Made by a program: the position numbers and the translations under genes. 64,000 nt of DNA from Stenotrophomonas sp. 57 (GTDB lineage: Bacteria > Pseudomonadota > Gammaproteobacteria > Xanthomonadales > Xanthomonadaceae): positions 1,858,001 to 1,922,000 of the forward strand of contig NZ_CP127407.1 of the NCBI RefSeq assembly GCF_030291075.1, in the 5' to 3' direction. The notes under the pieces were generated by a model. The model worked only from the letters and a program-made list of their open reading frames with translations, did no database searches and had not been told where the DNA came from. Positions 1 through 19,537 of this stretch are shown here, in pieces. The number at the start of each line of letters is the position of its first letter. Position 1 is the stretch's first letter.

Positions 1-1025
1 ACCTCGGCAAGGGCGAGCGCCGCATCGGCGTGCGCCAGGGCCCGGCCGTTGCCAATGGCCATGTGTTCGCTGCGGCGATCACCGGTGGCGTGCACGCCAT
101 CGACCTGCAGACCGGCAAGAAGGTCTGGACCTGGGAACCGACCAAGGAAAAGAAGAAGCCGAAGCTGCGCCTGTCCGGTGGCCCGGGTGTGGGTGAGAAC
201 CTGGTCGTGATCGGCACGCTCGATGGCCAGGTCATTGCCCTGGACATCAACGACGGCAGCGAAAAGTGGCGCGCCCGTGTTCCGGGTGAAGTGATTGCCG
301 CGCCGGCCGTGGCCCAGGGCCTGGTGTTCGTGCGCAGCAACGACGGCCGCGTGACCGCTTTCGATGCCGGCAACGGCACCCAGAAGTGGTTCAACCCGAG
401 CGAGCTGCCGGCGCTGACCGTGCGCGGCAACGCGCCGGTGGTGACCGGCCCGGGCGTGCTGTTCATCGGCAAGGACGAAGGCGCGGTTGCCGCGCTCGCC
501 ATGCAGGATGGCCGCACCCTGTGGGAGCAGAACATCGGCAACGGCGAAGGCCGTACCGAGCTGGAGCGCATGGCCGACGTGGACGGCGCCCCCGTGCTGG
601 ACGGCAACACCCTCTTCGTGAGCAGCTTCAAGAACCAGACCATGGCCATCGAGGGCCCGACCGGTCGCCCGCTGTGGGCGCGTGACCATGGCGGTGCAGG
701 TGGCGTGGCGGTGTCGTCGGGCAATGTGTTCGTCACCGACAACAAGGGTGGCGTGTTCGGCCTGGACAAGGCGACCGGCGCTGCCATGTGGTCGCAGACC
801 GAGCTGGCGCGTCGTTCGCTGACCGGTCCGGCGCTGCACGGTGATTACGTGGTCGTTGGCGACTACAAGGGATACGTGCACTGGTTGAAGACCTCCGATG
901 GTGCGATGGCGGCACGGGCGAAGAGCGGCGGTGACGCTCTCCTGGCCCAGCCGGTCGTCGTCGACGGGGTGCTGCTGGTGCAGAACGTGGATGGCAAGCT
1001 GACCGCCTTCCGGTTGGCAAATTAA
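1..1025 (+). CDS. bamB: Outer membrane assembly factor BamB, 3' part
   Basis: The reading frame is open from the first bases, so the N-terminus (with the expected lipoprotein signal) lies upstream. What remains is about 341 residues of PQQ-type beta-propeller repeats, with recurrent patterns such as '[11 protein letters not shown]' and '[11 protein letters not shown]'. In the family BamB is a periplasmic lipoprotein propeller that binds BamA in the beta-barrel assembly machine. The immediate downstream neighbour is der, the usual bamB-der order in gammaproteobacteria, which supports the call. It ends 17 bp before der, so the two are probably co-transcribed. The alternative, a PQQ dehydrogenase fragment, is unlikely given the context. 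Confidence 0.93.
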
Positions 1026-1042
1026 AAATTGGAGTAATCGCG

Positions 1043-2440: not shown

Positions 2441-2448
2441 TTCACGAG

Positions 2449-2473
2449 AAGGCGGCCGCAGGGCCGCCTTTTT
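2449..2473 (+). terminator. Rho-independent terminator after der
   Basis: A 9-bp perfect stem (AAGGCGGCC / GGCCGCCTT) with loop GCAG runs into a T tract. It begins 8 bp past the der stop and closes the bamB-der unit. Confidence 0.85.
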
Positions 2474-2476
2474 CGT

Positions 2477-2545
2477 GTAGCGCCGAGCCCATGCTCGGTT
2501 CCTCGGAGGTCGGCAGAAAGGCAGCCGACCGTGGGCTCGGCTCTA
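2477..2545. repeat. SMAG repeat pair (GAGCCGAGC class)
   Basis: Two head-to-head palindromes begin with GTAG and end with CTAC. Each arm has a GCCGAGCCCATGCTCGG-like stem, here with slight mutations (GTAGCGCC, GCAGCCGACC). This is the S. maltophilia GTAG REP architecture. It lies directly behind the der terminator. Confidence 0.85.
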
Positions 2546-2568
2546 CAATCGGGCCGGACGCTACCCGG

Positions 2569-2613
2569 GTAGAGCCGAGCCTACGCTCGGCTCAGCAGGG
2601 GCTCGGGCTCTAC
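2569..2613. repeat. SMAG repeat pair, shortened
   Basis: A second GTAG...CTAC element with an intact left hairpin (GAGCCGAGCCTACGCTCGGCT) and a truncated right arm. It ends only 9 bp before the moeB start codon, so the repeat occupies the leader and ribosome-entry region of that gene. Confidence 0.8.
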
Positions 2614-2622
2614 AATGGGCGC

Positions 2623-3759
2623 ATGAGCATTCCCGAGCTTTCCCCGCAGCAGGCGCATGAACGCCTCGCCCACGGCGCCGTGCTGATCGATGTGCGCGAG
2701 GCGCACGAACGGGCCGGCGGCATGGCCGAAGGCGCGCGTGGCGTGGCCAAGGCCGAGCTGCAGGCCGACCCGGCCGCGCATCTGCCACGGCAGGACCAGC
2801 ACATCCTGTTGATCTGCCAGAGCGGCAAGCGCTCGGCCGATGCCGCGCAGTTCCTGCTGGAGGCAGGCTACACAAATGTCGCTTCCGTGACCGGCGGCAC
2901 CGTGGCCTGGCGCGAACAGTCGCTGCCGTTGGTGCAGCCGCTGTCCAGCGCCGCCGACCGTGATTTCTTTGATCGTTATTCACGCCACCTGCTGCTGCCG
3001 CAGGTCGGCGAAGCCGGGCAGCGCCGGTTGCAGCAATCACGCGTGCTGGTGCTGGGCGCGGGCGGCCTGGGTGCGCCGGCCGGCTTCTATCTGGCCGCAG
3101 CCGGGGTAGGGCATCTGCGTTTTGCCGACCATGACCGCGTGGAGCGCAGCAACCTGCACCGGCAGATCGTGCATACCGAGGCCAGCGTCGGCCAGCTCAA
3201 GGTCGATTCGGCGCGCGAGCGGTTGCTGGCACTCAACCCGTCGATCGAGGTCGAGGCCGTGCCTGAGCGGGTCACATCCGAGAACGTGGATGTGCTGCTG
3301 TACGGCGTGGACGTGGTGCTGGACGGCTCGGACAACTTCCCGCTGCGCTACCTGCTCAACGATGCCTGCATCAAGCACGCCAAGCCGCTGGTGTATGCCG
3401 CCATCGAGCGCTTTGACGGCCAGGTAAGCGTGTTTGACGCTGGCCGCCAGCGTGGCGTGGCGCCGTGCTACCGCTGCCTGTTCCCCGAACCGCCGCCGCC
3501 GGAGTTTGCGCCGAACTGTTCCGAGGCCGGTGTGCTCGGCGTGTTGCCCGGCCTGGCTGGGGTGCTGCAGGCCACCGAGGTGCTGAAGCTGCTGCTCGGC
3601 ATCGGCGAGCCGCTGGTCGGCCGCCTGCTGCGCTTCGATGCGCTGGGCATGCGCTTCCGCGAGACCGGCATCCGGCCCGACCCGCAGTGCCCGGTGTGCG
3701 CGCCGGGCGTGCCGTTCCCGGGGTATATCGATTACGCCGCCTTCTGCCGGGGCGGGTGA
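2623..3759 (+). CDS. moeB: MoeB-type molybdopterin-synthase adenylyltransferase with N-terminal rhodanese domain
   Basis: This 378-residue protein has two domains. Residues 5-105 form a rhodanese domain with an active-site loop 'CQSGKR' (Cys65), a typical sulfur-carrying cysteine. Residues 115-378 form a ThiF/MoeB E1-like domain with the nucleotide loop 'GAGGLGAP', the 'RSNLHRQ' motif and a zinc site made of CYRC and CPVC pairs. The family adenylates the C-terminus of MoaD or ThiS-like carriers for sulfur transfer. The rhodanese here is at the N-terminus, whereas the eukaryotic MOCS3 order has it at the C-terminus. The frame is open far upstream across der and the repeats, but this ATG is where domain homology starts. 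A role in thiamine or thio-tRNA sulfur relay is possible. Confidence 0.88.
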   Translation: MSIPELSPQQAHERLAHGAVLIDVREAHERAGGMAEGARGVAKAELQADPAAHLPRQDQHILLICQSGKRSADAAQFLLEAGYTNVASVTGGTVAWREQSLPLVQPLSSAADRDFFDRYSRHLLLPQVGEAGQRRLQQSRVLVLGAGGLGAPAGFYLAAAGVGHLRFADHDRVERSNLHRQIVHTEASVGQLKVDSARERLLALNPSIEVEAVPERVTSENVDVLLYGVDVVLDGSDNFPLRYLLNDACIKHAKPLVYAAIERFDGQVSVFDAGRQRGVAPCYRCLFPEPPPPEFAPNCSEAGVLGVLPGLAGVLQATEVLKLLLGIGEPLVGRLLRFDALGMRFRETGIRPDPQCPVCAPGVPFPGYIDYAAFCRGG

Positions 3760-3775
3760 ATCCGACCGGGGATTC

Positions 3776-3798
3776 ATCCACGCATGGCGTGGATCTAC
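3776..3798. repeat. SMAG monomer (GATCCACGC class)
   Basis: On the minus strand this reads GTAGATCCACGCCATGCGTG..., a GTAG-headed hairpin with ATCCACGC/GCGTGGAT arms. It is a different stem family from the GAGCCGAGC elements. Confidence 0.8.
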
Positions 3799-3821
3799 CG
3801 GGGCATGACGGCTGGGCGTCC

Positions 3822-3844
3822 ATCCACGCATGGCGTAGATCTAC
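3822..3844. repeat. SMAG monomer (GATCCACGC class)
   Basis: A second copy of the ATCCACGC hairpin, same orientation, with one arm mutation (GCGTAGAT). It lies 1 bp from the next SMAG dimer. Confidence 0.8.
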
Positions 3845-3845
3845 T

Positions 3846-3917
3846 GTAGAGCCGAGCCCACGCTCGGCTGCTCTTCGTGCCGAGGCCAGAAGCAGCCGAG
3901 CATGGGCTCGGCTCTAC
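3846..3917. repeat. SMAG dimer (GAGCCGAGC class)
   Basis: An inverted pair, GTAGAGCCGAGCCCACGCTC... and its complement ending GGGCTCGGCTCTAC, separated by about 25 bp. Both arms are nearly perfect. Confidence 0.88.
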
Positions 3918-4083
3918 AGGTAATGGCGCCCACCGAAGCATGTGCATGGTTTCGGGATGATGCCGGGGCTCACCCGCTGCATCGTTCCATCGCCAAGACA
4001 ATCCGACGCAACATGCGTGCTATTGCCGTCATCGGCATTGCTCTATTGTTGACCCCGATTCTGGATCTTGGGGAACACACCGC

Positions 4084-5919
4084 ATGGCGGTAGAAGCAGC
4101 GACCAGCGAGCTGGTCAAGGTCGTCGCCCTGTTGGGCGCGGCGGTGGTGATGGTGCCCCTGTTCCGCCGGGCCGGCCTGGGCTCGGTGCTGGGATACTTC
4201 GCCGCTGGCCTGGCGATCGGACCGTTCGGGCTGGGCTGGTTCTCCGACCCGCAGGCGATCCTGCATACCGCCGAGCTCGGCGTGGTGATGTTCCTGTTCG
4301 TGATCGGCCTGGAAATGCGGCCTTCGCACCTGTGGAGCCTGCGCAAGGAAATCTTCGGGCTGGGCACGCTGCAGATCGCCACCTGTGCGCTGGTGCTGAC
4401 CAGCATCGCCAAACTGTTCGGCTTCCCGTGGCAGGTCGCCTTCATCGGCGCCACTGGCTTCGTGCTCACCTCCACCGCGGTGGTGATGCAGTTGCTGGCC
4501 GAGCGCGGTGATATCGCGCTGCCGTCGGGGCAGAAGATCGTTTCGATCCTGCTGTTCGAAGACCTGTTGATCGTGCCGTTGCTGGCCCTGGTGGCGTGGA
4601 TGGCGCCGAGCGCGGGCAGTGCCGATGGCGAGGGTTCGCGCTGGCTGTCGGTGGCGATTGGCGTCGGTGCCATCGTCGGCCTGGTGCTGGTCGGCCGCTT
4701 CCTGCTCAACCCCCTGTTCCGCGTGCTGGCCGAATCGAAGGCGCGCGAGGTGATGACTGCTGCCGCGTTGCTGGTGGTGCTGGGCGCGGCGCTGCTGATG
4801 CAGCTGTCCGGCCTGTCGATGGCGATGGGCGCGTTCCTGGCCGGCGTGCTGCTGAGCGAGTCGACCTTCCGCCACCAGATCGAAGCGGACATCGAGCCGT
4901 TCCGCGGCATCCTGCTCGGCCTGTTCTTCCTCAGCGTGGGCATGGCGCTGGACCTGGGCGTGGTGGCGGGAAACTGGCCGCTGATCCTGGGCCTGGTGCT
5001 GGCGCTGATGGCGGCCAAGGCGCTGTGCATCTACGTGGTCGCGCGCATCATGGGCAGTGATCACGCACAGGCGCTGGATCGCGGTGTCCTGATGGCGCAG
5101 GGCGGCGAGTTCGCCTTCGTACTGTTCTCTGCTGCGGCTTCGGCCGGCGTGATCAACCTGGAGATCAATGCCAACTTCACCGCCGTGGTGGTGCTGTCGA
5201 TGGCGCTGACCCCGCTGGTGGTGCTGGTCTACAAGCGCATCGCGCCGAAGCCGACGGTGAACATGGACGGCGTGGACGAGGCCGATGGCCTTTCCGGCAG
5301 CGTGCTGATGATCGGTTTCGGCCGCTTCGGCCAGGTCGCCAGCCAGTCGCTGCTGGCGCGCGACGTGGACGTGACCATCATCGACAACGATGTGGAGATG
5401 ATCCACAACGCCGAGCGTTTTGGTTTCAAGATCTATTACGGCGATGGCACCCGCCTGGACGTGCTGCATGCTTCCGGCGCCGCTACCGCGCGGGCCATCG
5501 CGGTGTGCGTGAACAACGCCGAGGATGCCGACCGCATCGTTGAACTGGTGGCGCATGAGTTCCCGCAGGCCAAGCTGCTGGTGCGCTCGTTCGACCGCGA
5601 GCACTCGCTGCGGTTGATCCATGCCGGCGTCGATTTCCAGATCCGCGAGACGTTTGAATCGGCGCTGCTGTTCGGCCAGGCCGCGCTGATGGAACTGGGT
5701 GCGGACGAAGATGACGCGCAGGAGATCGCGGAGCAGATCCGCGAGCGCGACGCCGAGCGTTTCGAGCTGGAAATGGCCGGTGGCAGCCTGCGCGCCGGTG
5801 CGCATATGGTGTTTGGCAGCGCGCTGCCAGGCGTGCCCACGCCGACCCCGTTCACCGCGCCAAAGCGCAAGGCGCGCACGTTGAATGCCGACCAGGTGCC
5901 GGAAGAGGAAGAGGATTGA
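4084..5919 (+). CDS. Kef-type monovalent cation:proton antiporter (CPA2 family)
   Basis: This 611-residue membrane protein has about twelve predicted helices in the first 385 residues, followed by a cytosolic RCK/KTN domain starting near residue 400 with the dinucleotide loop 'GFGRFGQ'. The charged tail ends in an acidic cluster. The architecture matches KefB/KefC glutathione-gated potassium efflux systems, which exchange K+ for H+ during electrophile stress. No KefF/KefG ancillary oxidoreductase gene is adjacent, so ligand gating is unproven. The ATG is the first methionine and fits the usual start just before the first helix. Confidence 0.9.
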   Translation: MAVEAATSELVKVVALLGAAVVMVPLFRRAGLGSVLGYFAAGLAIGPFGLGWFSDPQAILHTAELGVVMFLFVIGLEMRPSHLWSLRKEIFGLGTLQIATCALVLTSIAKLFGFPWQVAFIGATGFVLTSTAVVMQLLAERGDIALPSGQKIVSILLFEDLLIVPLLALVAWMAPSAGSADGEGSRWLSVAIGVGAIVGLVLVGRFLLNPLFRVLAESKAREVMTAAALLVVLGAALLMQLSGLSMAMGAFLAGVLLSESTFRHQIEADIEPFRGILLGLFFLSVGMALDLGVVAGNWPLILGLVLALMAAKALCIYVVARIMGSDHAQALDRGVLMAQGGEFAFVLFSAAASAGVINLEINANFTAVVVLSMALTPLVVLVYKRIAPKPTVNMDGVDEADGLSGSVLMIGFGRFGQVASQSLLARDVDVTIIDNDVEMIHNAERFGFKIYYGDGTRLDVLHASGAATARAIAVCVNNAEDADRIVELVAHEFPQAKLLVRSFDREHSLRLIHAGVDFQIRETFESALLFGQAALMELGADEDDAQEIAEQIRERDAERFELEMAGGSLRAGAHMVFGSALPGVPTPTPFTAPKRKARTLNADQVPEEEED

Positions 5920-6000
5920 CCCGTTCTGGTAAGGCCGGTGGGCGAGGGGGCCTGAATCAGGGACAATAGCGTCCCCGCCGCCGCCGTTCCCCCGCTCCCG

Positions 6001-6879
6001 ATGACCGATTCCGCCCCCCAGCATCCTGCCCGCATCCTCGATGGCCGCCGTATCGCCGAGGACCTGCTCGACAGCCTGAAGGTGCGCGTCGACGCCCGCG
6101 TGGCCGCCGGCGGCAGCCGTCCGGGCCTGGCCGTGGTGCTGGTGGGTGGCGACCCGGCCTCGACCGTGTACGTGCGCAACAAGCGCCGCGCCGCCGAGAA
6201 GGTCGGCATCGAAGCGCATGACTACGACCTGCCGGCCGGCACCACCGAGGCCGAGCTGCTCGACCTGATCGACCAGCTCAACGCCGATCCGAAGATCAAC
6301 GGCATCCTGATCCAGCTGCCGCTGCCGGGCATCCCCGACGCGCGCCGGCTGATCCAGCGCATCGACCCGCGCAAGGACGTGGACGGCTTCCACCCGGAAA
6401 ACGTCGGCCACCTGGCCCTGCGCGAGTTCGGCCTGCGCCCGTGCACTCCGCGCGGCATCACCACGCTGCTGGGCCACACCGACCAGCCGGTGCGTGGCCG
6501 CAACGCCACCATCGTCGGCGTGAGCAACCACGTCGGCCGCCCGATGGGCCTGGAGCTGCTGATCGCCGGCTGCACCGTGACAAGCTGCCACAAGTTCACC
6601 CCCAAGGACGTGCTGGAACAGGCCGTGCGCAACGCCGACATCCTGGTGGTGGCGGTGGGCCGCCCGGGCATCGTGCCGGGCGAATGGGTGAAGCCGGGCG
6701 CGGTGGTGATTGACGTCGGCATCAACCGGTTGGACGACGGCCGCCTGGTGGGCGACGTTGGGTTTGAGGCGGCCGCCCAGCGGGCGAGCTGGATCACCCC
6801 GGTGCCGGGTGGCGTGGGCCCGATGACCGTGGCCACGTTGATGCAGAACACCCTGGAGGCGGCGGAAGCGCTGAGCTGA
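6001..6879 (+). CDS. folD: FolD bifunctional methylene-THF dehydrogenase/cyclohydrolase
   Basis: This 292-residue protein of normal family length interconverts 5,10-methylene-THF and 10-formyl-THF in one-carbon metabolism. Visible signatures are the '[14 protein letters not shown]' segment with the catalytic lysine, 'IQLPLP', '[12 protein letters not shown]' and 'PCTPRG', plus the Rossmann region '[11 protein letters not shown]'. It sits alone between the Kef gene and a SMAG element. Location next to the purine genes guaB/guaA fits one-carbon and purine supply, though they are probably separate transcripts. Confidence 0.97.
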
Positions 6880-6926
6880 CCTACTGTTGGCACCTACCAA
6901 GGGCGGCACCGCGCCTCGGGCCTCCT

Positions 6927-6995
6927 GTAGAGCCGAGCCTATGCTCGGCTCATCGCGGTCTGGCGGAAAGCAGCCGAGCATGGGCTCGGCTCTAC
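6927..6995. repeat. SMAG dimer between folD and guaB
   Basis: A GTAGAGCCGAGCCTATGCTC palindrome and its inverted partner ending CTCGGCTCTAC, with a 20-25 bp centre. It lies about 50 bp after the folD stop and could serve as its 3' end. Confidence 0.87.
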
Positions 6996-7053
6996 AGGTG
7001 AGCGGGTGCGACACTGTGTCGCGCGAAGTTCCAATTCTGGCTACCAAAAATGC

Positions 7054-8569
<1,516 letters not shown>

Positions 8570-8570
<1 letters not shown>

Positions 8571-9154
8571 TGCGCTTGCGAACTGCTCTTGCGATTACGG
8601 GCAGCCTGCTGATGGCAGGCTGTTCGTTGTCCGAACCGCCGCCGCGCTCCGGGTCTCCGGGCGCGGCGGTTTCGCAATTGCAGGACGTACAGGCCTGCCA
8701 GAACGCGTTCTCGCTGCCGAAGGGCTGGCAGGTGCAGGCCGCTGGCGAGCAGCGCTGGCTGCTTAAAGGTACCGGCGAGCGCCCGCTGCAGGTCACCCTG
8801 CAATGCATTACCGAGCTGCTGCACGGGCCGGATGATCCGGTGCTGACGCCGGTACTGGGCGCGCTGGAGCCCGCACGGATGAGCGTGCGCTGGGCGTCCT
8901 GGGGCGCTGCGGATGCGGGCGTCTCGATGGCGGCGCTGCAACGGCGCATCGTGCCCGGCACCGAAGTGCAGGAAATCGCCGAGCTGCCGCGCGCCGACCG
9001 CGCCAACCCCAACGCACCGCACGGCCTGCTGATGCTGCGCTGGGACGAGGAAGACCCCTCACATATTCAACAACGCGAGGCGTTCATCGCCACGCTGACG
9101 CAGAGCCTTGAAGCGCCGGGCGCTGCGAAAAACACCACTGGAACGGCACCATGA
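8570..9154 (+). CDS. Predicted lipoprotein between guaB and guaA
   Basis: This 194-residue protein has a signal peptide and lipobox 'LMAGC' (Cys18). A proline-rich linker follows, then a domain with no family I recognise. It overlaps guaB by one base and guaA by four (ATGA), so the three are clearly one operon. It is inferred to be anchored in the inner or outer membrane facing the periplasm. Its function is unknown, and a role in nucleotide metabolism cannot be read from the sequence. Such a gene between guaB and guaA seems to be a xanthomonad-type arrangement. Confidence 0.82.
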
Positions 9155-10716
9155 CCAACATCCATAACGACAAGATCCTCATCCTCGATTTCGGCGCGCA
9201 GTACACGCAGCTGATCGCCCGCCGCATCCGCGAGCTGGGCGTCTACTGCGAAATCTGGGCGTGGGACCACAACCCGGCCGAGATCGCGGCGTTTGGCGCC
9301 AAGGGCATCATCCTGTCCGGTGGTCCGGAATCGACCACGCTGCCGGGTGCGCCGGCCGCGCCGCAGGAAGTGTTCGACAGCGGCCTGCCGATCTTCGGCA
9401 TCTGCTACGGCATGCAGACCCTGGCCGCGCAGCTGGGTGGCGCTACCGAAGCCGCTGACCAGCGCGAGTTCGGCCACGCCGAAGTGAACGTCATCAACCC
9501 CGATGCACTGTTCAAGGGCCTGAGCGACCACGGCGGCGAGCCGAAGCTGAATGTCTGGATGAGCCACGGCGACCACGTCTCCGTTGCGCCGCCGGGCTTC
9601 ACCATCACTGCCACCACCGACCGCATTCCGGTGGCCGCCATGGCCAACGAAGAGAAGCGCTGGTACGGCGTGCAGTTCCACCCGGAAGTGACCCACACCC
9701 TGCAGGGCCAGGCGCTGCTGCGCCGCTTCGTGGTGGACGTGTGCGGCTGCCAGACCCTGTGGACCGCCGCCAACATCATCGACGACCAGATCGCCCGCGT
9801 TCGCGAGCAGGTGGGCGATGACGAAGTGATCCTGGGCCTGTCCGGCGGCGTCGATTCGTCCGTGGTGGCTGCGCTGCTGCACAAGGCCATCGGCGAGAAG
9901 CTGACCTGCGTGTTCGTGGATACCGGCCTGCTGCGCTGGCAGGAAGGCGACCAGGTGATGGCGATGTTCGCCGAGCACATGGGCGTAAAGGTCGTTCGTG
10001 TGAACGCCGCCGACCGTTACTTCGCCGCGCTGGAAGGCGTGAGCGACCCGGAAGCCAAGCGCAAGATCATCGGCAACCTGTTCGTTGAGATCTTCGACGA
10101 AGAGTCGAACAAGCTGAAGAACGCCAAGTGGCTGGCGCAGGGCACCATCTACCCGGACGTGATCGAGTCGGCCGGCAGCAAGACCGGCAAGGCGCATGTG
10201 ATCAAGAGCCACCACAACGTGGGCGGCCTGCCGGAGCACATGAAGCTGGGCCTGGTGGAGCCGCTGCGCGAGCTGTTCAAGGACGAAGTGCGCCGCCTGG
10301 GCGTCGAGCTGGGCCTGCCGCGCACCATGGTCTATCGCCATCCGTTCCCGGGCCCGGGCCTGGGCGTGCGTATCCTGGGCGAAGTGAAGCGCGAATACGC
10401 CGAACTGCTGGCCAAGGCCGATGCCATCTTCATCGACGAGCTGCGCAAGGCCGACCTGTACGACAAGACCAGCCAGGCGTTTGCCGTGTTCCTGCCGGTG
10501 AAGTCGGTGGGCGTGGTGGGTGACGCGCGGGCTTATGAGTGGGTGATTGCGCTGCGGGCTGTGGAGACGATCGACTTCATGACGGCGCATTGGGCGCATC
10601 TGCCGTATGACTTCCTGGGGACGGTGAGCAACCGGATCATCAATGAGTTGCGGGGGGTTTCGCGGGTTGTCTATGACATCTCGGGGAAGCCGCCGGCGAC
10701 TATTGAGTGGGAATGA
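9151..10716 (+). CDS. guaA: GMP synthase (glutamine-hydrolysing)
   Basis: This 521-residue protein converts XMP to GMP using ATP and glutamine. It has an N-terminal class I amidotransferase with nucleophile loop '[10 protein letters not shown]' and '[11 protein letters not shown]', an ATP-pyrophosphatase P-loop '[11 protein letters not shown]' near residue 230, and a C-terminal dimerisation domain ending 'PATIEWE', as is standard. It overlaps the lipoprotein stop by 4 bp. The last 160 bp show somewhat different codon choice (many TTG, CGG, GGG codons), as does the 3' flank where the accessory island begins. Confidence 0.98.
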
Positions 10717-10757: not shown

Positions 10758-11328
10758 AGGTGTCCGCTATCCATCAGGCAAATGGCAGGTAGTGGGGCAG
10801 CTGTTCTCCCAATGGTCTCATCGTTCGTGAGGTGGAGTTTGTACACATGCATTGATAACGCATCGAATATGCACTACTCAATGAGTTGACCCTTCTCAGG
10901 GGCACAATCATGACCCGGCACTCTACCAGTTCCTGGCGACACCTCACCGAACGGATAGAAACTACGACTCACCTAGACGGGCTAGCTGATCTGGTACTCA
11001 GTCGATTTCTTGATGGGGTTCTTGGAAGAGGCGCCTACTGGATGAGCGGCGCCTACGCATCGAATCACCAAGATGCTTGGATGCGAGGCCGTGGCCTTCT
11101 TTTGAGCCGAACGGATGTCGTCTGGAGCGTTGCTCGGTGGCCGAGCCTCTCCGGATCCTGTTACATGCCGAGTTGTTAGTCTGACACTAAGGCCCTAAGA
11201 TCAACCCGCGTCAAAGACCGATCCCGCTATGAGGTGCGTTTTGAATGCGGGATATAAATGGGGGATACAGCGGAAACCATGTGACAATGAGGTAGGCGGC
11301 TGGGATCTTTCAACACAGGAGGTGTGAT
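10758..11328. other. Gene-poor left flank of the accessory island
   Basis: Composition drops from the chromosomal GC level here. A possible reading frame begins at an ATG at 10910 and ends at 11179 (about 89 residues), with no recognisable domain, no good ribosome binding site and a cysteine/serine-rich end. I treat it as doubtful. A TATAAA box near 11252 may be the -10 of the small gene downstream. No tRNA or integrase was seen. Confidence 0.4.
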
Positions 11329-11565
11329 ATGGCTCTCTACAAATACGCGAACCGTTTGGCCCAGTCGCAGCATGCTGCGTTCGATGCAACGCATACGCCG
11401 GGTACGAGCGCACCGCACCCAGGAATATACCGCTGCACATCCTGTGGAGATGAGATTGCAATCGCAGGTGGCCACACACTTCCGCCTCAAAACCATCAGC
11501 AGCACGATCCCGCCAACGGTCAGATCAGGTGGCAGCTTCTAGTTTATCCAGTGCAGCAGGGCTAG
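11329..11565 (+). CDS. Small CxxC zinc-ribbon-like protein
   Basis: This 78-residue protein has a very strong ribosome binding site (AGGAGGTG, 4 bp before ATG). The N-terminal segment 'YKYANRLAQSQHAAFD' is followed by 'YRCTSCGDEI' and 'GHTLPPQNHHQH'-like residues (HTLPPQNHQQH), which suggests a Cys2/His metal site. It resembles small proteins found in pseudomonads and xanthomonads that carry only the name 'protein L'. Function is unknown. It stands alone on the plus strand, just before the IS3 remnant. Confidence 0.7.
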   Translation: MALYKYANRLAQSQHAAFDATHTPGTSAPHPGIYRCTSCGDEIAIAGGHTLPPQNHQQHDPANGQIRWQLLVYPVQQG

Positions 11566-11647
11566 CGAAAAACCTGGTGGTAGTGTTCCCTCTCGACCCA
11601 AAGCGGACATCTGTAAGTCTACCGGAGCGAGCTTGCGGTGGGGCCCG

Positions 11648-11860
11648 GTGGCGGAGAGCTTCTTCAGCGCAATGAAGAAGGAGTGACTCTAACGGCTGTG
11701 CAAGCCGACAGGCCACCGGATCAGATGTCTTTGACTACATTGTGGTGCTTTACAACCCAGTCCATCTGCTTAGTTCTGCTTATGCTCTGTCAGTTGTAGA
11801 GTTTGATCTGCGTAACGCGCAAAGCGGTTCCTGAGTGTCTGTGGAACTCTGGCCGGTCGA
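11648..11860 (+). mobile_element. Degenerate 3' end of an IS3-family insertion sequence
   Basis: Conceptual translation gives 'VAESFFSAMKKE' then a stop, and after a frameshift 'DVFDYIVVLYNP' and 'VEFDLRNAQSGS' ending at TGA 11832-11834. These match the conserved tail of IS3-family orfB transposases (VAESFFSxLKKE ... DVFDYIExFYNP ... VEFExRxAQxGS). The bases after the stop, TGTCTGTGGAACTCTGGCCG, resemble an IS3-type terminal inverted repeat. Upstream transposase sequence is missing. This is a dead remnant marking past mobility at the island's left part. Confidence 0.72.
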
Positions 11861-11988
11861 GTCTGCTCAATCGGCATGCCAGTCAACAAGCGGCAACCGA
11901 TACGTCGGGACTAATAAGGAGCACCGGATACCGCGCTTCGGGCGCGTTTAGCGATACACCTCAGACCACAGAACCCTATGGAATCGCA

Positions 11989-13095
11989 ATGCCCGCACTT
12001 CATATCTTCATCGACACCAATGTATTTCTGAACTTCTACTCATTCCCAGAGGACAAATCCTCTGTACTTGAAGCCCTTATCAAGGTCCTCGGGCCGAGCA
12101 AGATCAATCTTCACTTGCCTAAGCAGGTGGAGGATGAATTCTGGAGGAACCGGGAGTCGAAGATTCACGCGGCGGTACTCGAGTTCAGAAATGCCAACCT
12201 TCCCACAGCGGTTCCGAACCATATGCGAGGTGCCGAAACTGCCACTCATTACAAGGACGCAATCGACGCAGCAGAGAGCGCTCGGAAGAAGCTTGTCGCG
12301 CACGTGTTGGGCTTGGCCGTTCTAGGAAAGCTTGAGATCGACACGCAAGTCACGGAAGTGTTCGCACGGGCAGTAAGATACCCTGATTCGGACCAGGTAT
12401 TGGCTAGGGCTGTGGCCAGAATGCATAAAGGAAACCCCCCGGGTAAGGTTGGAAACATCGGGGATCGTTACAACTGGGAGATGTTGCTGGAGCAGGCGCC
12501 TAATGAGGATCTCTATATCATTACGAAAGACGGTGATTTCAGTTCTTTGCTTGGAACTTTGGACAAGAATCCTCGCCCGATGGCGTTCTTGGCCAAGGAG
12601 TGGGCGGAGAAAGCGCCTGGGCGTAATTTGTATGTCCATACTTCTATCCAGGCGCTTTTGAGTCACTACGAGAAGCTTGCAGCCCAACCTCAGGAACCCC
12701 AGGTGCCTGTGGAGACTGCGGTACCCGCTCCAGTTCCAGTGCCGGAGGTGGTGCCTCAGCTTTCTGTCACGCCGGTGCCTAATGCCGCCGATCTGATGGT
12801 CCAGCAGGCCAAGCAAGAGGCGATAAGCGCCCTGGTTAAGAGTGAGAGCTTCGCGCAAACCCATCAGGCGATCGCTACGCTTAGTTCGCTAATGAACTGG
12901 ATCAATGTGGCGGAAGCGAACAAGCTTTTCGAGGCCGCCTTGGAGAACCACCAGATTAAATGGATCCTAACGGATTCGGATGTCAATGGCTTCTACCTCG
13001 ACCTGCTGAACAAGCACTCACTACACGCGGAAGATGAGCTGGTCAACTTGATGATTGAGGAGCTCGGACTCCTGACCGATGACGATCCATTTTGA
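11989..13095 (+). CDS. PIN-like domain protein (DUF4935 type)
   Basis: This 368-residue protein has an N-terminal PIN-like nuclease fold over about 180 residues: 'IFIDTNVFLNF' (Asp9), 'EDEFWRN' (about residue 47), 'GDRYNWEMLL' (about 158) and 'TKDGDF' (about 180) supply the expected acidic cluster. A proline/valine-rich linker (about 230-262) leads to a helical C-terminal domain of unknown type. PIN domains are Mg-dependent RNases, often toxins or defence effectors. The chosen ATG is directly before the first strand; the frame is open further upstream through the IS remnant, but that part is not conserved-looking. The 3' end is partly duplicated just downstream. Confidence 0.75.
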   Translation: MPALHIFIDTNVFLNFYSFPEDKSSVLEALIKVLGPSKINLHLPKQVEDEFWRNRESKIHAAVLEFRNANLPTAVPNHMRGAETATHYKDAIDAAESARKKLVAHVLGLAVLGKLEIDTQVTEVFARAVRYPDSDQVLARAVARMHKGNPPGKVGNIGDRYNWEMLLEQAPNEDLYIITKDGDFSSLLGTLDKNPRPMAFLAKEWAEKAPGRNLYVHTSIQALLSHYEKLAAQPQEPQVPVETAVPAPVPVPEVVPQLSVTPVPNAADLMVQQAKQEAISALVKSESFAQTHQAIATLSSLMNWINVAEANKLFEAALENHQIKWILTDSDVNGFYLDLLNKHSLHAEDELVNLMIEELGLLTDDDPF

Positions 13096-13142
13096 TGATT
13101 GAGGAGTTCGGATTCCTGATCGATGAAGATCCTTGGAGGTGA
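13049..13142 (+). repeat. Imperfect tandem duplication of the PIN gene 3' end
   Basis: The last 14 codons of the PIN gene (TTGATGATTGAGGAG...GATCCATT) are followed at once by a diverged copy (TTGATGATTGAGGAG...GATCCTTGG). The second copy keeps an open frame starting at an ATG that overlaps the PIN stop (TGATG): 15 codons, MIEEFGFLIDEDPWR. It is probably the relic of a neighbouring homologous 3' end or of recombination. Confidence 0.7.
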
Positions 13143-13321
13143 CGTGCCGTGGGGTCGTCTAGACAATGCTCTCGGAGGCTCGGTGTTCACACGCTACGAC
13201 GCCACCAGATGGCGGGAGAAGACCGTCGCACACTGTGCCCGTCACGCGGTAGAGCCGGGTAAGCGCGGAATCGAGATGTGAACTTAGAACTCCCCTCACA
13301 AAAGCGCATCGTGCGGGGTGA

Positions 13322-14050
13322 TCACTTAGTAACGTAGGCCAACATAGGCGCTGACGCTTGCCCGATCGCAACGATTCCTGTCACCACCGTTACTAGGTTC
13401 GCAAGAGTAGCGAGACGATCCATAAAGGACTTTCCCTCAGCAGTGGACATGCTGATCTTGCCACTCTCGCTGAGGTTGGCGTGCGCAACCGAACACAGCA
13501 CTGCATCCAGAATCGGTGCGGCGCCCGTGATGAAGTATGTGTCGATCGTGTTTACTACCACCTTGAGTCGATCCAACAGAACCTTCTTCAGATCGTCAGG
13601 GAATGAGGACTGCAGTACAAAGTCAATCAGTTCGTTGGTACTACTACGAATCTCTTGCAACTGCTCAGAGGTCAGGGCCTTTCCGGGCTGCTTGGACTCA
13701 AAAAGCTCATCCATACTACTGAGGAACTGAATGGTGTGCGTATCGATAGGCGACATGTAGTCAGCCCAGCGGGTTCCAAATATGTTGCGGCTGAATGCAG
13801 AAAAGAAACATCCAACCATATGCTGGTGAGTGTTTCGAGCAAACTGCCGAGGATGATTGGACTCCAGCTGAGCTACAACTTGACCAGGAAGCGCCATCAC
13901 ACGCCCCACCCTGTCCAAGAGCGTAGGTGTGTGATCGCGTTGGACGCCGAGAATTACACACCATGCGTCATGCGCAACGATTGTAGGGTCTATGTCTCTT
14001 CCAGCTTCAACGATTGACAGTAGGCGACCTGCGGGGTTGTCTCCGTACAT
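13322..14050 (-). CDS. Uncharacterised protein with C-terminal membrane helix
   Basis: This 242-residue protein belongs to no family I recognise. It is mostly polar and helical, with one strongly hydrophobic stretch at the C-terminus ('LATLANLVTVVTGIVAIG', about residues 215-235), which suggests a tail-anchored or membrane-associated protein. Its ATG is preceded by AGGAG at good spacing. It is convergent with the PIN gene and lies 117 bp behind the helicase gene on the same strand, so it may be the last gene of the defence-like operon. AT-richer codon use matches the island. A membrane effector role is a guess from context only. Confidence 0.65.
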   Translation of the reverse strand: MYGDNPAGRLLSIVEAGRDIDPTIVAHDAWCVILGVQRDHTPTLLDRVGRVMALPGQVVAQLESNHPRQFARNTHQHMVGCFFSAFSRNIFGTRWADYMSPIDTHTIQFLSSMDELFESKQPGKALTSEQLQEIRSSTNELIDFVLQSSFPDDLKKVLLDRLKVVVNTIDTYFITGAAPILDAVLCSVAHANLSESGKISMSTAEGKSFMDRLATLANLVTVVTGIVAIGQASAPMLAYVTK

Positions 14051-14167
14051 CCACTTCTCCTGCTAAAGGCGGCTATGCACTGGCTTCACTGCCGTGACGA
14101 TTGAGATATCGCCGGCTAGGCGGAGCTTAACTCGGTCAATCTCAAGAATATCTGATTGCAACGAAGC

Positions 14168-16075
14168 TTAGGCTGACATGTCAACCACCCTCCACCCATT
14201 AGATTGCAGTGCAGCCAACTGTGGAGCAGTCACGCGATCTTTGTGAGTTGCGATAGCTAACAGCTCAGTGGGACGGGACATGCCAACGTAGAGACCTCGA
14301 TATGCCCCCTTGATCGATTTAGGACCGCTGGGCATCGGGGATCCATTGGCAATGCTCTCCATGGCCGCCCCAATGTCATGCCGTTTCAGGTGATGAACTA
14401 TTCCATCAAGAACTAAAGTGGCTAGGTGCGTCTCCCCCTTTACGGATGCAGTGGTTCCAACCTCAACTGACACCGTTCTTCCGCTATGAGAGACAACGAC
14501 TGAGTTGTTCAATAGGCAGGAATCGGAGCTGGCATCATCATCCGTCTCCAGCGCCGCTGCGAATTCACTCTCATCGATCTCATCTTTCAGAAGAGGTTTC
14601 AGTACATCAAATATCTGAGAGATCGTCTGTGGCCAGGTGCTCGTCCCAATCAAATCTCCAGTTACCGCTAGCCTGTATCGAAGGCTACGGATCGGCGCAA
14701 CGTCAATACCCTTTCCCTCAAGCGCTCGTAGAAGCCCGCTCGCGTCTCGCACGTCACGAACGATTTTGCTCCCTCCTGCTCGCAAACAGAGCAGGAGGGC
14801 GCGGGAGATGTCGCGAGTGCGCTTGGACAGGTCGACGGGAGCGACCCCCCATCCCGGAGGGGCTGCCAGAAGTGATCTGACAGACTCCTTTCCGCTTGCG
14901 CCAGATGCAGTCATCGAGAACAGAGGGTAGTAGTCAACGACATGGCGGCCGAGTCCCAATTTTGATGAGCCGGTCTTTCTTGAGCAGATCGCCTTGATGG
15001 GCAGCCCAGCACGATCCTGGTCACTCAAAGTATCGATGACTATTTGACCGAATCGACCGATAACGTCACCAACGTTTCCGTCGTCATACAGAATCACTAC
15101 CGGCGCGTGCTCGCCCTGTCGCTCGGATACAACTTGCGCAGGATAGTCTTGAACAGAGGAAACGATTGCCGCAATGTCCTTTGGAAAACGTTTAGTAGAA
15201 CTTACGGTGAGAGCCCCTTCTTTCGGAAAGGTGAGTTGCCCTTCATCCTTTCCATTGTTGAGTATCCTCTGGTTGCGGTCGCCGAATCTCTGCATAGTCA
15301 CTGAGTCTCCGAAGATTGAGTTCAGAAGATGTTCTTGCTCAGAGTCGGTATCCTGCATTTCATCAATGAGAACCAGTGGATATCTCCATGACGCCGCGCG
15401 GGTTACAGAGGGTTGCCTCTTCAGTAGGTGACTCGCGAAAGCAAGCATATCCGCGTGGCGGAAAATTCCTTCGGAAGTCAGTTGATGTTTGATCTCTTCG
15501 GCTTGCTTCCATGTAGGTGAGCTCTCGCCAGGAAGACTTCCGATCTCCGTGCCGAGCTTGAGGTCTTCGCCGACGTGGATGAGCGTCCCGACGACATCGT
15601 CGCCATTAGGCTGCCTTTTCGCCCAACCCCTGAGAGTCCACTTCCTTTGCATTAAGTAGAGAGCATTTCTTTCAAACACGTCATTGTCGATGGAGTCGAT
15701 CTCAATACCCTCAGACCGAAGCAGGGGCAGAGCAAGATGCGTGTTGATAAATGAGTGAATAGTTCCTATGAAGTGTGGATACGACAGTAGTGATGCGCCA
15801 TGAGCATTCGATGCCAGGCGCTTCGAAATCTCCGTGGCTGCTACGTTTGTGTGGCTTATTACACAGATACCTCTGTTAGCGTGCTTCCACTTAGACGACA
15901 GCAGTATCAGTTTGGCAGCAAGGAGCGTAGTTTTCCCGCTTCCCGGAGCGGCCTGTACGTCACAGGAAGTCATCGCTTGAAGAACTGTGGCTCGTTCAGG
16001 GTCAGTGAAGTCCAAGCCAGGCATCAGATCAGCTAGTAGCGCCAAGTCTTCATCAGTGATTGTAGGCAGGGTCAT
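14168..16075 (-). CDS. UvrD-like superfamily 1 helicase (GajB-like)
   Basis: This 635-residue protein has SF1A motifs: motif I 'AAPGSGKTT' (about 42-50), Ia 'ISHTNVAATEI', motif II 'LIDEMQDTD' (about 234), motif III 'FGDRNQRI', motif V near 'KGETHLATLVLD' and motif VI 'YVGMSRPTELL' (about 595). It starts inside the stop of the OLD-family gene (ATGA overlap), so the two are translationally coupled. An OLD ATPase/TOPRIM nuclease coupled to a UvrD-like helicase is the Gabija arrangement (GajA-GajB), in which the helicase-like partner senses nucleotide or DNA ends. It is longer than the characterised GajB (about 500 residues), so subtype is uncertain. Confidence 0.85.
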   Translation of the reverse strand: MTLPTITDEDLALLADLMPGLDFTDPERATVLQAMTSCDVQAAPGSGKTTLLAAKLILLSSKWKHANRGICVISHTNVAATEISKRLASNAHGASLLSYPHFIGTIHSFINTHLALPLLRSEGIEIDSIDNDVFERNALYLMQRKWTLRGWAKRQPNGDDVVGTLIHVGEDLKLGTEIGSLPGESSPTWKQAEEIKHQLTSEGIFRHADMLAFASHLLKRQPSVTRAASWRYPLVLIDEMQDTDSEQEHLLNSIFGDSVTMQRFGDRNQRILNNGKDEGQLTFPKEGALTVSSTKRFPKDIAAIVSSVQDYPAQVVSERQGEHAPVVILYDDGNVGDVIGRFGQIVIDTLSDQDRAGLPIKAICSRKTGSSKLGLGRHVVDYYPLFSMTASGASGKESVRSLLAAPPGWGVAPVDLSKRTRDISRALLLCLRAGGSKIVRDVRDASGLLRALEGKGIDVAPIRSLRYRLAVTGDLIGTSTWPQTISQIFDVLKPLLKDEIDESEFAAALETDDDASSDSCLLNNSVVVSHSGRTVSVEVGTTASVKGETHLATLVLDGIVHHLKRHDIGAAMESIANGSPMPSGPKSIKGAYRGLYVGMSRPTELLAIATHKDRVTAPQLAALQSNGWRVVDMSA

Positions 16076-18057
16076 GCGATCTCCTCTTGCGCGGGCTCAG
16101 CGTCATCATTCCCCGCTGAGGCGCATGCCCTTGGTGCACCAGTGGTAACGTGAAGCAGAGCTTCGCGAAGATAGCGGGGCAGCATGTCCAAGAGATCCTG
16201 TCCACCGCCATAGTTTCCACTGGCGAGAAGTCGAGCCGCGAACTGCGCGGCGACTGCCTTGGAGGCATCGCCTTCGTAGAGTGGCTTATAGATCTCACAT
16301 GCCATAGCAACTTTGTCGCCGGCATGTTTGCCTTGGAGGATCGCCCACGTTGCAGCCGCCTCGACCTCCAGATCGGGAATTTTGGATTCGTCGAACTTAA
16401 GCCCCTGAGACTTCTTAGCGCAAGCTAGGCTTACTGCGATGAAGATAAGTTGGGAGCAGCCGCTCAGTGCGAGATCATACTCAAGCGTCCATTGATCTGA
16501 GACAAAGACACGGACAGACTTTTCATCCTCCACCTCGACCCTGTCCTTCTTCCTCTGTACCACTGCAGCAACCTCCGCTGTGGTGTAGTCCTTTTCAAAT
16601 CGCTTCTGGCCCTTCTTCTTTGGCGGATCGACGTAAGTCGCCTGCGTTGGAACGATATCTCTGTCAGTAACGCAACCTACTGGGATGCCAACCGAATCGG
16701 ACCCGCCCGCGCGTTGGAAGATTCGTGCGTAGTGGTACAGCCCGACATCACCGACGTTGACGATCGACACGCCGTGGGCTGAAAGAGACAGCCCGGCTGC
16801 CTCAGCGAGCGCCGGAAGTAGCAAGGCTTCACCTGGTGCTTCTACTACCAAGATGCCTCGCGCGAAGAACAGGTTCGCCTTTGTTGCATCAAGAAAGCGC
16901 TCCAGGTACTCGAAATCAAGCTTATCCAGACGGGTGTCCGCCTGCCGGAGCGGGTATGTCCTAGATTTCCTGACCAGGATAAGTGACTGCAAAGGAGCGG
17001 TGGTCGCAAGGGAAGGGCTATGAGTTGAAAGGATCACCTGCACTGGGGATTGATCGTCCGCGCTCTTGCTCTCCATCAGTCGGAGCACTCGGTCCTGAAG
17101 CTGAGGATGCAAGTGCGCCTCGGGTTCTTCAATGAGTAGCAGCGGAAGTCCCTCTTCGTCACCACTCAACAGAACCAATTCAGTTGCCATGAACAGTGCG
17201 TTGTTGTATCCAAGCCCGCGAGCGCATTTCGCATCCTGATCAACGGCTTCCGGTGGAGTTAGCGACAGCTCGAATCTTTCAAGAATCTGAGTAAGACTAC
17301 TGGACCCAGCGATGCGGATCCGGGAGGAGAGTGCCTCCCCTTCGAACGACATTCGGGAAAGGTAGTTGTTATTGATTTCATCTTGGACTGTGCCGATGGT
17401 CTCATGGCGCTGAATGTCATACTGCGCGCGACTCATCATCCCCACAAGCGTCGCCGGCGGAGTGCCGCCTTCAGGATCGAAGTCATTTTTGTCTTGAGAG
17501 ACCATTGACTTGTGAGCGCCGAGTATCTGCGAAAGTCGCGACAGCCTGCCGGGCCGAAGCTCAGCCTCTGCATCTCGCAGAGGGCGTAGATAAGTCGCCC
17601 TGACCAGTTCTCGCACAGCAGCACCGACCTCGGGGCCTGAGCCATCCGCCCCACATCGGGTAACCGAGAACACTCTTGACCGCCTGCCTGGAGTGGCCGG
17701 TAGGCGTGTCGCTTGCAGATGAAGGATCAGCGATCTAGTGCCGTCCTTCTCGTAGGTAAGCCATTCCAGAACAGCTGCCTCTTGGGAGACGGACAGTTCC
17801 TTCAAGCATGCCTGGATTGTCAGTGTCTCAGCCTGCGCTGCACCATGCACATGAAAGTCCGACTCTTGGATTCGAACGCTCTCATAGCTCGTGGTCCAAA
17901 GGAGGAGCCGGATGGCATCGATGATAGTCGTCTTGCCGGCGTCGTTCTCCCCGATAAGGACGTTCAAGCCGTTGTTGAGCGTGAGGTCCAACTTCGGTGA
18001 TGACTTTGTGTCTCCAAAGCCTCTGAAACCGCTCGCTTTGATGCTATGCAGGTACAT
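16072..18057 (-). CDS. OLD-family ATPase with TOPRIM nuclease domain (GajA-like)
   Basis: This 661-residue protein has an N-terminal ABC-type ATPase with Walker A 'GENDAGKT' (36-43), Walker B 'LLLIEEPEAHLHP' (about 304) and H-loop 'LSTHSPS'. The C-terminal TOPRIM domain shows 'VVEAPGEALLLP' (about 402), 'VTDRD' (about 462) and 'EYDLAL' (about 524), which supply the metal-binding acidic residues. This is the overcoming-lysogenization-defect nuclease architecture; with the coupled UvrD helicase it points to class 2 OLD/Gabija anti-phage defence. The start is set at MYLHSIKASGFRGFG; a TTG start 13 codons upstream is possible. A 12-bp palindrome lies just upstream. Confidence 0.86.
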   Translation of the reverse strand: MYLHSIKASGFRGFGDTKSSPKLDLTLNNGLNVLIGENDAGKTTIIDAIRLLLWTTSYESVRIQESDFHVHGAAQAETLTIQACLKELSVSQEAAVLEWLTYEKDGTRSLILHLQATRLPATPGRRSRVFSVTRCGADGSGPEVGAAVRELVRATYLRPLRDAEAELRPGRLSRLSQILGAHKSMVSQDKNDFDPEGGTPPATLVGMMSRAQYDIQRHETIGTVQDEINNNYLSRMSFEGEALSSRIRIAGSSSLTQILERFELSLTPPEAVDQDAKCARGLGYNNALFMATELVLLSGDEEGLPLLLIEEPEAHLHPQLQDRVLRLMESKSADDQSPVQVILSTHSPSLATTAPLQSLILVRKSRTYPLRQADTRLDKLDFEYLERFLDATKANLFFARGILVVEAPGEALLLPALAEAAGLSLSAHGVSIVNVGDVGLYHYARIFQRAGGSDSVGIPVGCVTDRDIVPTQATYVDPPKKKGQKRFEKDYTTAEVAAVVQRKKDRVEVEDEKSVRVFVSDQWTLEYDLALSGCSQLIFIAVSLACAKKSQGLKFDESKIPDLEVEAAATWAILQGKHAGDKVAMACEIYKPLYEGDASKAVAAQFAARLLASGNYGGGQDLLDMLPRYLREALLHVTTGAPRACASAGNDDAEPAQEEIA

Positions 18058-18080
18058 GATCCATTTCCCTATTGGCTCTA

Positions 18081-18092
18081 AGTTACGTAACT
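18081..18092. promoter_or_regulatory. Perfect palindrome upstream of the OLD gene
   Basis: AGTTACGTAACT is a perfect 12-bp palindrome located between the stop of the zinc-ribbon-like gene and the OLD-family start, 23 bp before that ATG. It could be an operator or a regulator-binding site inside the operon. No dedicated regulator gene was identified in the island. Confidence 0.4.
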
Positions 18093-18109
18093 GCAATACC
18101 GACTAATCC

Positions 18110-18775
18110 CTACGGTAGGTGAGGTGGCGGAGCGTGCCCAAGTCGCTCTGCAATTTTCCGCTGCTGAGACGTCAGCGCCGGCCAGATGAGGTGCACTCGA
18201 CTGGCGGGCATGGCTTTGAGGTCGTCCCTATGTTTATCATTTGATAGGGATACCTTGAAGAAGCTGGGGTTGTGATCGATCTGGTGCTTCTTGAGGCGCC
18301 AAAGCACAACGAACGCGTACTTCGGCGTCAGCTTTCCGTTCTTTCTGTAGTAGGCGAGCGCATTAGGCAGGATGTCTCCCTTTCCGGTTCCCTCCCTTGC
18401 CTCGGCGTCACTAACTCTCTGCAGCCGTTCGATGCAGCTGTCTTGGCGCATCCTTTCCGTAAGCCTAGAGAGCTTAGCGCGCGCGTCGACCTCGCTTAGC
18501 TTCCGGCCATCTTCATAGACGGCGACCTTGAATCTAAGTATGCAGGTCGAGCCGACGAGCATCGTGTTCTGGGTCAGCTGATTCGCAATCTCGAACTGGT
18601 ACCGAAGCTGCTCTTGCTCACACAACTCGCAGCAAACTGTCGGCTGCTCGTGATCGATCGTTGTCTCGGTGAACCTCCACTCAGAGAAAGCTTCTGGAAG
18701 AGTATTCGCTACAGAAAGCGGGACGATGTTGTCCCTCACGCGTTCAATGAACTGCTGCACTTGATGCTCCCTCAT
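18110..18775 (-). CDS. Uncharacterised protein with zinc-ribbon-like N-terminus
   Basis: This 221-residue protein has, near residue 48, 'CCELCEQEQLRYQFEIAN' followed by 'LVGSTCI' about 20 residues later. This is a Cys-x2-Cys ... Gly-Ser-x-Cys pattern typical of a small treble-clef or zinc-ribbon domain seen in many unnamed phage and bacterial proteins. The rest is basic and helical. It is the first gene of the minus-strand operon, 52 bp before the OLD-family ATG, so it is a candidate accessory subunit of the defence module. I cannot assign a function. Confidence 0.68.
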   Translation of the reverse strand: MREHQVQQFIERVRDNIVPLSVANTLPEAFSEWRFTETTIDHEQPTVCCELCEQEQLRYQFEIANQLTQNTMLVGSTCILRFKVAVYEDGRKLSEVDARAKLSRLTERMRQDSCIERLQRVSDAEAREGTGKGDILPNALAYYRKNGKLTPKYAFVVLWRLKKHQIDHNPSFFKVSLSNDKHRDDLKAMPASRVHLIWPALTSQQRKIAERLGHAPPPHLP

Positions 18776-19180
18776 CTGCGCAATCTGGCTTCGTATCGCC
18801 GAACTAAGTCTAAAGCGCTATGCTTTTCCATGCCCCTTGCGTCGTGTGGAAAGATGCGCTCAGATCAAGCGTCTTCAACACTCAGCTTGCAGGAGCTATA
18901 TCTTGGGCCGACCTTAGAAGGTCGAGTGTGGTAGTGCGCAATTGCTTTTCGCCCATGCAAGGGCTCATAGTTCGCCATCGATACCGTGACCCAGTTCACA
19001 TGCCTGTTCAATACTAAGCTCAGCCAGAATGTCGAACAAGCCCTTGGCAATCCAAGGGTGGACCGCCGAGGGAACTGTAGACACGTACTGTCCATCTAGT
19101 TATCCGCTTATGGTCGGAAGTGGGGTTAGCTAATACCCGACTCGATCAAATCTGCTGAACGTGTTCTCGCTCAGCCTCAC
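18776..19180. other. Right flank of the island, intergenic
   Basis: This 405-bp stretch is AT-richer and shows no convincing gene; the short open frames lack ribosome binding sites and domain signals. It should hold the promoter of the three- or four-gene minus-strand defence-like operon. Composition returns to chromosomal GC from about 19,160 on, so the island's right edge lies here. No direct repeat of the guaA 3' end was found by eye. Confidence 0.5.
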
Positions 19181-19537
19181 TCACTCCGGCCTAACCTCCC
19201 GACAGGCCCACTCAACCAGTCCCCGGCAAGCCAGAAACAACCCATCAACCACCCCCTCATCCAAATGCCGTTCCGGGTCCGCTGCTACCCGGCAGCGGTC
19301 TGCCGCGTGCAGTAGCTCCAGCACCGTCAGCGCCCCCACCAACGCGCGCTCGGTCCTCGCCAAGCTCACGCGGCGGCCGGGTGACACGTCGGTTTCTGGC
19401 CAGGGGTGCCCATCAGCACCCTCGCAGCCGCGCATGCGTTTGAGGATGCCGAGCAGGGAGTTCAGATCGGGCAGGGGAGTGTCGTCGTTGATGGGTTCAA
19501 CAACGGTGTACGAGGAGAAGGTGTCGGATTCGTTCAT
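19181..19537 (-). CDS. Uncharacterised small acidic protein
   Basis: This 118-residue soluble protein starts at MNESDTFSSYTVVEP. The reading frame extends further upstream, but the added part has no protein-like character and overlaps a strongly structured leader. The body contains 'SLARTERALVGALTVLELL' and 'HLDEGVVDGLFLACRGL', regular helices reminiscent of short orphan proteins that occur in many copies in pseudomonads and xanthomonads. Function is unknown. The first gene outside the island on this side, it has chromosomal GC content. Confidence 0.6.
   Translation of the reverse strand: MNESDTFSSYTVVEPINDDTPLPDLNSLLGILKRMRGCEGADGHPWPETDVSPGRRVSLARTERALVGALTVLELLHAADRCRVAADPERHLDEGVVDGLFLACRGLVEWACREVRPE

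Follow-up and report, generated by a model that had tools for sequence, protein, structure and literature searches.

The Gabija system of Bacillus cereus VD045 (PDB 8sm3, 8jq9 and 8u7i) consists of an OLD ATPase-TOPRIM nuclease, GajA, followed by a UvrD-like helicase, GajB. In the characterised system the two proteins are reported to form an octameric ring (PMC10822852), and a preprint describes the target as linear DNA that is not handled by RecBCD (PMC12407980). E379, D432 and D434 are named among the TOPRIM active-site residues of B. cereus GajA in PMC10781630, which also describes the DEXQD box of GajB. A survey of Stenotrophomonas maltophilia (PMC11680222) reports Gabija in 45% of the strains, mostly in island #16; the most diverse island in that survey is #13, which lies between guaA and pgrR. 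P2-like phages of E. coli are described as having an antiviral hotspot in the interval between gpA and the portal gene (PMC9122126).

The window, a stretch of 64,000 nucleotides from Stenotrophomonas sp. 57, has three tandem open reading frames on the minus strand between 14168 and 18775. The sequence-only reading had proposed that these might represent a three-gene variant of Gabija with unusually long proteins, in which a gene for a zinc-ribbon-like protein precedes the OLD/UvrD pair. The best explanation, to which we assign a probability of about 0.85, is that the locus is a canonical two-gene Gabija of a long subgroup, one of the cargoes of a known defence slot that guaA and a LysR gene delimit, and that the gene beside it is separate mobile cargo. 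The features are collected in Table 1.

Table 1. Features of the Gabija locus and its surroundings (positions of the window)
Feature	Position	Strand	Description
guaA (GMP synthase)	9151..10716	+	Left flank of the island; ORF translation, named by eye and from PMC11680222
Variable AT-rich defence island	10758..19182	.	Between guaA and the LysR gene; conserved flanks end here in congeners
PIN-domain cargo protein	11803..13095	+	Pfam PIN_12, E 6e-16
242-aa cargo protein	13322..14050	-	phrog_15904, E 1e-16; 117 bp downstream of gajB
gajB	14168..16075	-	UvrD-like SF1 helicase, 635 aa
gajA	16072..18057	-	Class 2 OLD nuclease, ABC-type ATPase and TOPRIM domains, 661 aa
First gene	18110..18760	-	216-aa protein (GTG start), uncharacterised, with a C-x2-C...C module

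The assignment of the OLD ATPase/TOPRIM protein and the UvrD-like helicase to the Gabija pair was confirmed by near-full matches to one PADLOC subgroup. GajA matched PDLC00099 (626 positions) with an E-value of 7.7e-210 over model positions 1-620, while GajB matched PDLC00147 (637 positions) with an E-value of 1.9e-186 over model positions 1-636 (residues 1-633). Pfam found AAA_15 and OLD-like_TOPRIM in GajA, and UvrD-helicase in GajB. The PDB sequences matched by GajA included the OLD nuclease 6p74, the C-terminal domains of the Xcc and other class 2 OLD proteins, and GajA itself. The Walker A (GENDAGKT, residue 36) and Walker B (LLLIEEPEAH, residue 306) motifs and the TOPRIM acidic residues (E406; D465-R466-D467) of GajA were intact, as had been claimed from the letters. 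E406, D465 and D467 were invariant in an alignment of 13 rows, the window's own included, and a profile alignment placed them on E379, D432 and D434 of the B. cereus protein. GajB has a Walker A motif (APGSGKTT, residue 43) and the sequence DEMQD (residues 238-242) at the DEXQD box, so that both the catalytic E/D/D of the nuclease and the helicase box of the VD045 pair are conserved. The single-sequence match to B. cereus GajA, however, was weak (E 4e-9, residues 301-446) and the relationship was clear by profile alone. The reported 4-bp overlap of the two genes was also correct; the gajB start lies inside the gajA stop (ATGA), and AGGGA precedes the gajA ATG. Judged by these sequence comparisons, the identification is strong: the two genes make up an ordinary Gabija, with GajA as the OLD nuclease and GajB as the UvrD-like helicase.

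From the characterised Gabija we infer the activity of the pair and its formation of a complex. GajA and GajB would form a ring of four copies of each (GajA4-GajB4) directed against invading DNA, in which GajB would handle the DNA and may help to license the GajA ATPase, while the TOPRIM site of GajA would nick or cut the DNA. The susceptible substrates would be linear ends that escape RecBCD handling.

The protein lengths had been taken as a mark of a variant. The values themselves, 661 and 635 residues, were correct, and the window GajA is 83 residues longer than the 578-residue B. cereus chain. These lengths are not unusual, however, since the PADLOC models of the subgroup have 626 and 637 positions and the relatives are similarly long, the GajA/GajB pairs having, for example, 670/636 (L030), 730/639 (L031), 650/645 (L037) and 738/640 (L080) residues. 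The argument that the proteins are longer and hence a variant was rejected, because the known GajA and GajB models of the subgroup share such lengths, and the pair is, by its sequence, a member of an ordinary subgroup of long Gabija systems. The gajA-gajB layout is the same in relatives on plasmids of Aeromonas, Comamonas and Serratia, and within this subgroup the pair itself shows no visible difference; it is the upstream gene that differs. Overlapping gajA and gajB recur without the first gene in Aeromonas, Comamonas, Serratia and Rhodococcus, and in Rhizobium (L034) the two genes are 2 bp apart, again without it. The Rhizobium sp. L51/94 plasmid at that locus has a hypothetical 618-bp gene (3766-4383, plus strand) that shares the orientation of gajA and lies 117 bp upstream of it; this small gene gave no match to the first-gene HMMs.

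In contrast to the B. cereus VD045 pair, that of the window has an unrelated gene 52 bp upstream of gajA. The existence of this gene was correctly reported, but the length of 221 residues assigned to it counts from an ATG at 18775. The start is probably the GTG at 18760, the sixth codon of that open reading frame, which gives 216 residues, because GAGGGAG lies directly upstream of it and five homologues (L004, L005, L052, L055 and L056) start at the same codon; the rows for L053 and L060-L062 in this comparison were trimmed by hand to the inner start. The description as zinc-ribbon-like held in part. In a 13-row alignment every row had C52 and C78, and almost every row C49; a fourth conserved Cys or His was lacking there, and the protein matched no Pfam domain. 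It likewise had no PADLOC match, and the NCBIfam and PHROG matches were weak (E 0.017-0.045). Orthologues with 49-61% identity were found on plasmids, in genomes and in viral contigs. The gene probably encodes a small, putative metal- and nucleic-acid-binding protein that acts as an accessory or as a stand-alone factor. Cotranscription with gajA, as in the claim of a common operon, is plausible because the two genes are on the same strand and 52 bp apart. A sigma-70 scan of 13000-19200 gave 0 promoter-like sites compared to 3.4 in shuffled sequences, and is uninformative on the operon either way.

The island in which the three genes lie is, as the sequence-only reading had observed, richer in AT than its surroundings, with a GC content of 0.54 (10758-19182) as compared to 0.67 (1-9000). 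All 41 genomes sampled from the genus, the window's own among them, gave a match to the 3' end of guaA. In each of the 16 congeners in which both flanks were on one contig and the interval could be measured (L226-L241), the guaA-LysR interval contained other cargo, 2.3-14.2 kb long with a GC content of 0.46-0.57, the difference in cargo being judged by lengths and open reading frames and not by an all-against-all comparison. None of the 16 had a member of the first-gene family in the interval, and the only GajA-like match there had an E-value of 1.5e-7. Ten long cargo proteins were picked by hand from 7 of the 16 congeners; eight of these matched PADLOC models at E <= 1e-5, the matches being to type I and type III restriction, partly PtuA-like, and to PDC-S06, LmuB and SIR2. 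Throughout the genus the guaA-LysR interval is thus a defence slot whose cargo turns over rapidly. Its position matches that of S. maltophilia defense island #13 in PMC11680222, with guaA as the left flank, a LysR gene on the right and variable defence cargo between them, although most of the Gabija systems in that survey are reported from island #16 while that of the window is in the #13 position. PMC13310844, in which guaA is mentioned as a typing gene, was set aside.

Two other cargo genes of the window's island are listed in Table 1. The C-terminal stretch of the PIN_12 protein resembles PADLOC PDC-S34 (E 3e-14, model positions 300-380 of 384), and it is possible that this is a second defence gene of the island. 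A direct repeat of 41 bp, 90% identical, surrounds the stop of the PIN_12 gene (13048-13088 and 13092-13132). No relatives of the 242-residue phrog_15904 protein were reported in the other loci searched (E <= 1e-5).

Linkage of the first gene to Gabija was assessed from both directions. Of the 104 loci given by a search that began with GajA, 91, none of them the window's own, had both GajA and GajB; the 11 loci that had GajA alone and the 2 that had neither protein were excluded. A confident first-gene relative was present at one of these 91 loci (L039, from genome G223), and one further locus (L030) gave an 18-bit match that was counted as absent; the set apparently includes near-identical contigs and its flanks are uneven, so the 91 loci are not 91 independent events. 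The Aeromonas plasmid L030 encodes, divergently to gajA (3759-4268, minus strand), a 169-residue C-x2-C...VGCVC protein whose cysteine stretch is similar but which belongs to another family; it scored 17.7-18.1 bits. Six fetched relatives with a GajA identity of 53-60%, from Aeromonas (L030), Comamonas (L031), Serratia (L032) and the loci L036, L080 and L086, have the same overlapping gajA-gajB layout, and no first-gene orthologue was present in their fetched flanks; equally close plasmid records, such as further Aeromonas plasmids and E. coli CP042646, were left out, and 6 of the 83 plasmid records with GajA were fetched. Two loci outside the 91 (L247 and L248) had a relative of GajB and none of the first gene.

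The genome samples pointed the same way for the most part. In the genus sample, 4 of 91 genomes had a GajA match (E <= 1e-20) and 2 of 91 a match to the first-gene family (E <= 1e-3). In the class sample GajA was matched in 4 of 369 genomes (E <= 1e-60) and the family in 6 of 369 (E <= 1e-5); in both samples the window's genome was the only one with the two together. The family sample had GajA in 12 of 297 genomes (E <= 1e-30) and the first-gene family in 3 of 297, one of which was spurious (G109, 26% identity inside a long open reading frame, E 5e-4), and here two genomes, the window's own and G223, had both. This overlap is more than expected by chance, opposite to the other samples, and the numbers are tiny. 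Among the matches listed, no plasmid record was shared between the 48 with a first-gene relative and 60 of the 83 with GajA; the plasmid search for GajA had a limit of E 1e-20 and may have left out the Roseomonas GajA, which was not among the matches listed.

In the other direction, 30 further loci with a member of the first-gene family were examined, and in 28 of them the fetched flanks lacked the GajA-GajB pair; two of these loci (L058 and L060) end at contig edges, and two more (L048 and L050) begin about 400 bp before the first-gene relative. The 30 loci comprised 12 of the 48 plasmid records, G223, five class-level genomes, eight genome contigs, three viral contigs and the congener G1021; among the plasmid neighbourhoods, L007 and L008 were near-duplicates, as were L012 and L013. 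The two exceptions were G223 and Roseomonas pOT10-1 (L014). In G223 a first-gene relative of 157 residues lies 143 bp downstream of the gajB of a distant pair, whereas in Roseomonas the relative is divergent to a Fic-gajA-gajB cluster in which gajB is short and adjoins an IS5 element. Both pairs belong to other Gabija subgroups by PADLOC. The E-values of these two relatives (L039 and L014) are inflated because both were in the training alignment of one HMM; the single-sequence E-values were 2e-7 and 2e-22. At a further locus (L059) a lone OLD-like ATPase match (E 1e-7), with no GajB match, lies 7 kb from an interrupted copy of the first gene. The two exceptions leave a loose, facultative association of the first gene with Gabija possible. 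No three-gene Gabija and no zinc-ribbon partner appeared among the papers listed by searches of the open-licence PMC literature, nor did a phage assay of this operon come to light; PMC8136825 was rejected as a zinc-ribbon source, its sole "zinc ribbon" being in the title of a reference.

The surroundings of the family elsewhere were varied. In Herminiimonas (L052) a first-gene relative lies 27 bp downstream of a gene for a CapP-like peptidase, in Paenibacillus (L009) one is beside a DNA adenine methylase, and at L057 an HsdR-like gene is about 3 kb away. Plasmid partition genes (L011) and a DNA polymerase III alpha gene (L047) were also among the neighbours. In Pandoraea (L054) a RES-domain gene, itself preceded by two uncharacterised genes, is followed after 63 bp by the orthologue (4044-7693 for the whole); the cassette resembles a toxin or defence operon that carries a member of the first-gene family as an add-on. 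The three viral contigs (L060-L062) have an orthologue with about 60% identity after a gpA-type replication gene. In one of the three (L062), the orthologue (61% identity) lies between gpA and the portal/terminase genes, the same interval as the hotspot described for the E. coli P2 locus in PMC9122126. A gene for 130 residues with no Pfam match lies between gpA and the orthologue in L062 (7489-7881, plus strand) and also in L060. Given these varied neighbours across loci, plasmids and viral contigs, the family behaves as independent mobile cargo, and in the window it would be mobile cargo that happens to sit upstream of gajA.

Other roles for the first gene have been weighed against this one. 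It might be a dispensable accessory or regulator that modulates Gabija or other adjoining defence operons, a reading that is unlikely but draws on the occurrence of the family near Gabija in three divergent lineages, the window included, and near the RES, CapP-like, methylase and HsdR-like genes. No single partner recurs, however, and several annotated loci, for example the Rhizobium plasmids L007 and L008 and Halomonas L011, have no evident defence gene adjoining the first-gene relative; the PADLOC comparison covered ten chosen neighbours. That the first gene has an anti-restriction or anti-defence function, and protects a mobile element rather than the host, is decidedly unlikely. The relatives on 48 plasmid records, including an IncF plasmid (L012) with ardA and ssb about 5-7 kb away, and those in P2-like phage contigs would fit such a role, but the first gene also occurs in a chromosomal defence island beside an intact Gabija, and family and structure searches, which included no dedicated inhibitor library, found no likeness to a known inhibitor. 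The three-gene variant suggested by the sequence-only reading, in which the first gene would be indispensable as a third component of Gabija, for example an adaptor for DNA ends or substrates, is very improbable: the common strand, the short gap, an AT-rich composition like that of gajAB and the relatives beside the two very different Gabija loci of G223 and Roseomonas are outweighed by co-occurrence at 1 of 91, 0 of 6 and 2 of 30 loci and by a place near Gabija that varies each time (upstream, downstream or divergent). This is largely the lack of co-occurrence with OLD/UvrD pairs in other genomes that the sequence-only reading had itself named as refuting it.

The locus is therefore best described as a two-gene Gabija with an unrelated gene as its neighbour, and the false lead of a long, three-gene Gabija is removed; the pair belongs to an ordinary subgroup and lies in an island already described. 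What remains new is the family of the first gene, which is conserved and nameless, with no confident Pfam, PADLOC, NCBIfam or PHROG assignment, and recurs in mobile elements and published defence hotspots. One tentative suggestion is that the family is stand-alone cargo that moves among anti-phage hotspots (the P2-like gpA-gpQ and the guaA-LysR intervals), plasmids and Gabija, RES, CapP and methylase cassettes, where it may act as an independent antiviral or anti-mobile-element factor, or as a promiscuous accessory to several DNA-targeting systems, perhaps by binding DNA ends.
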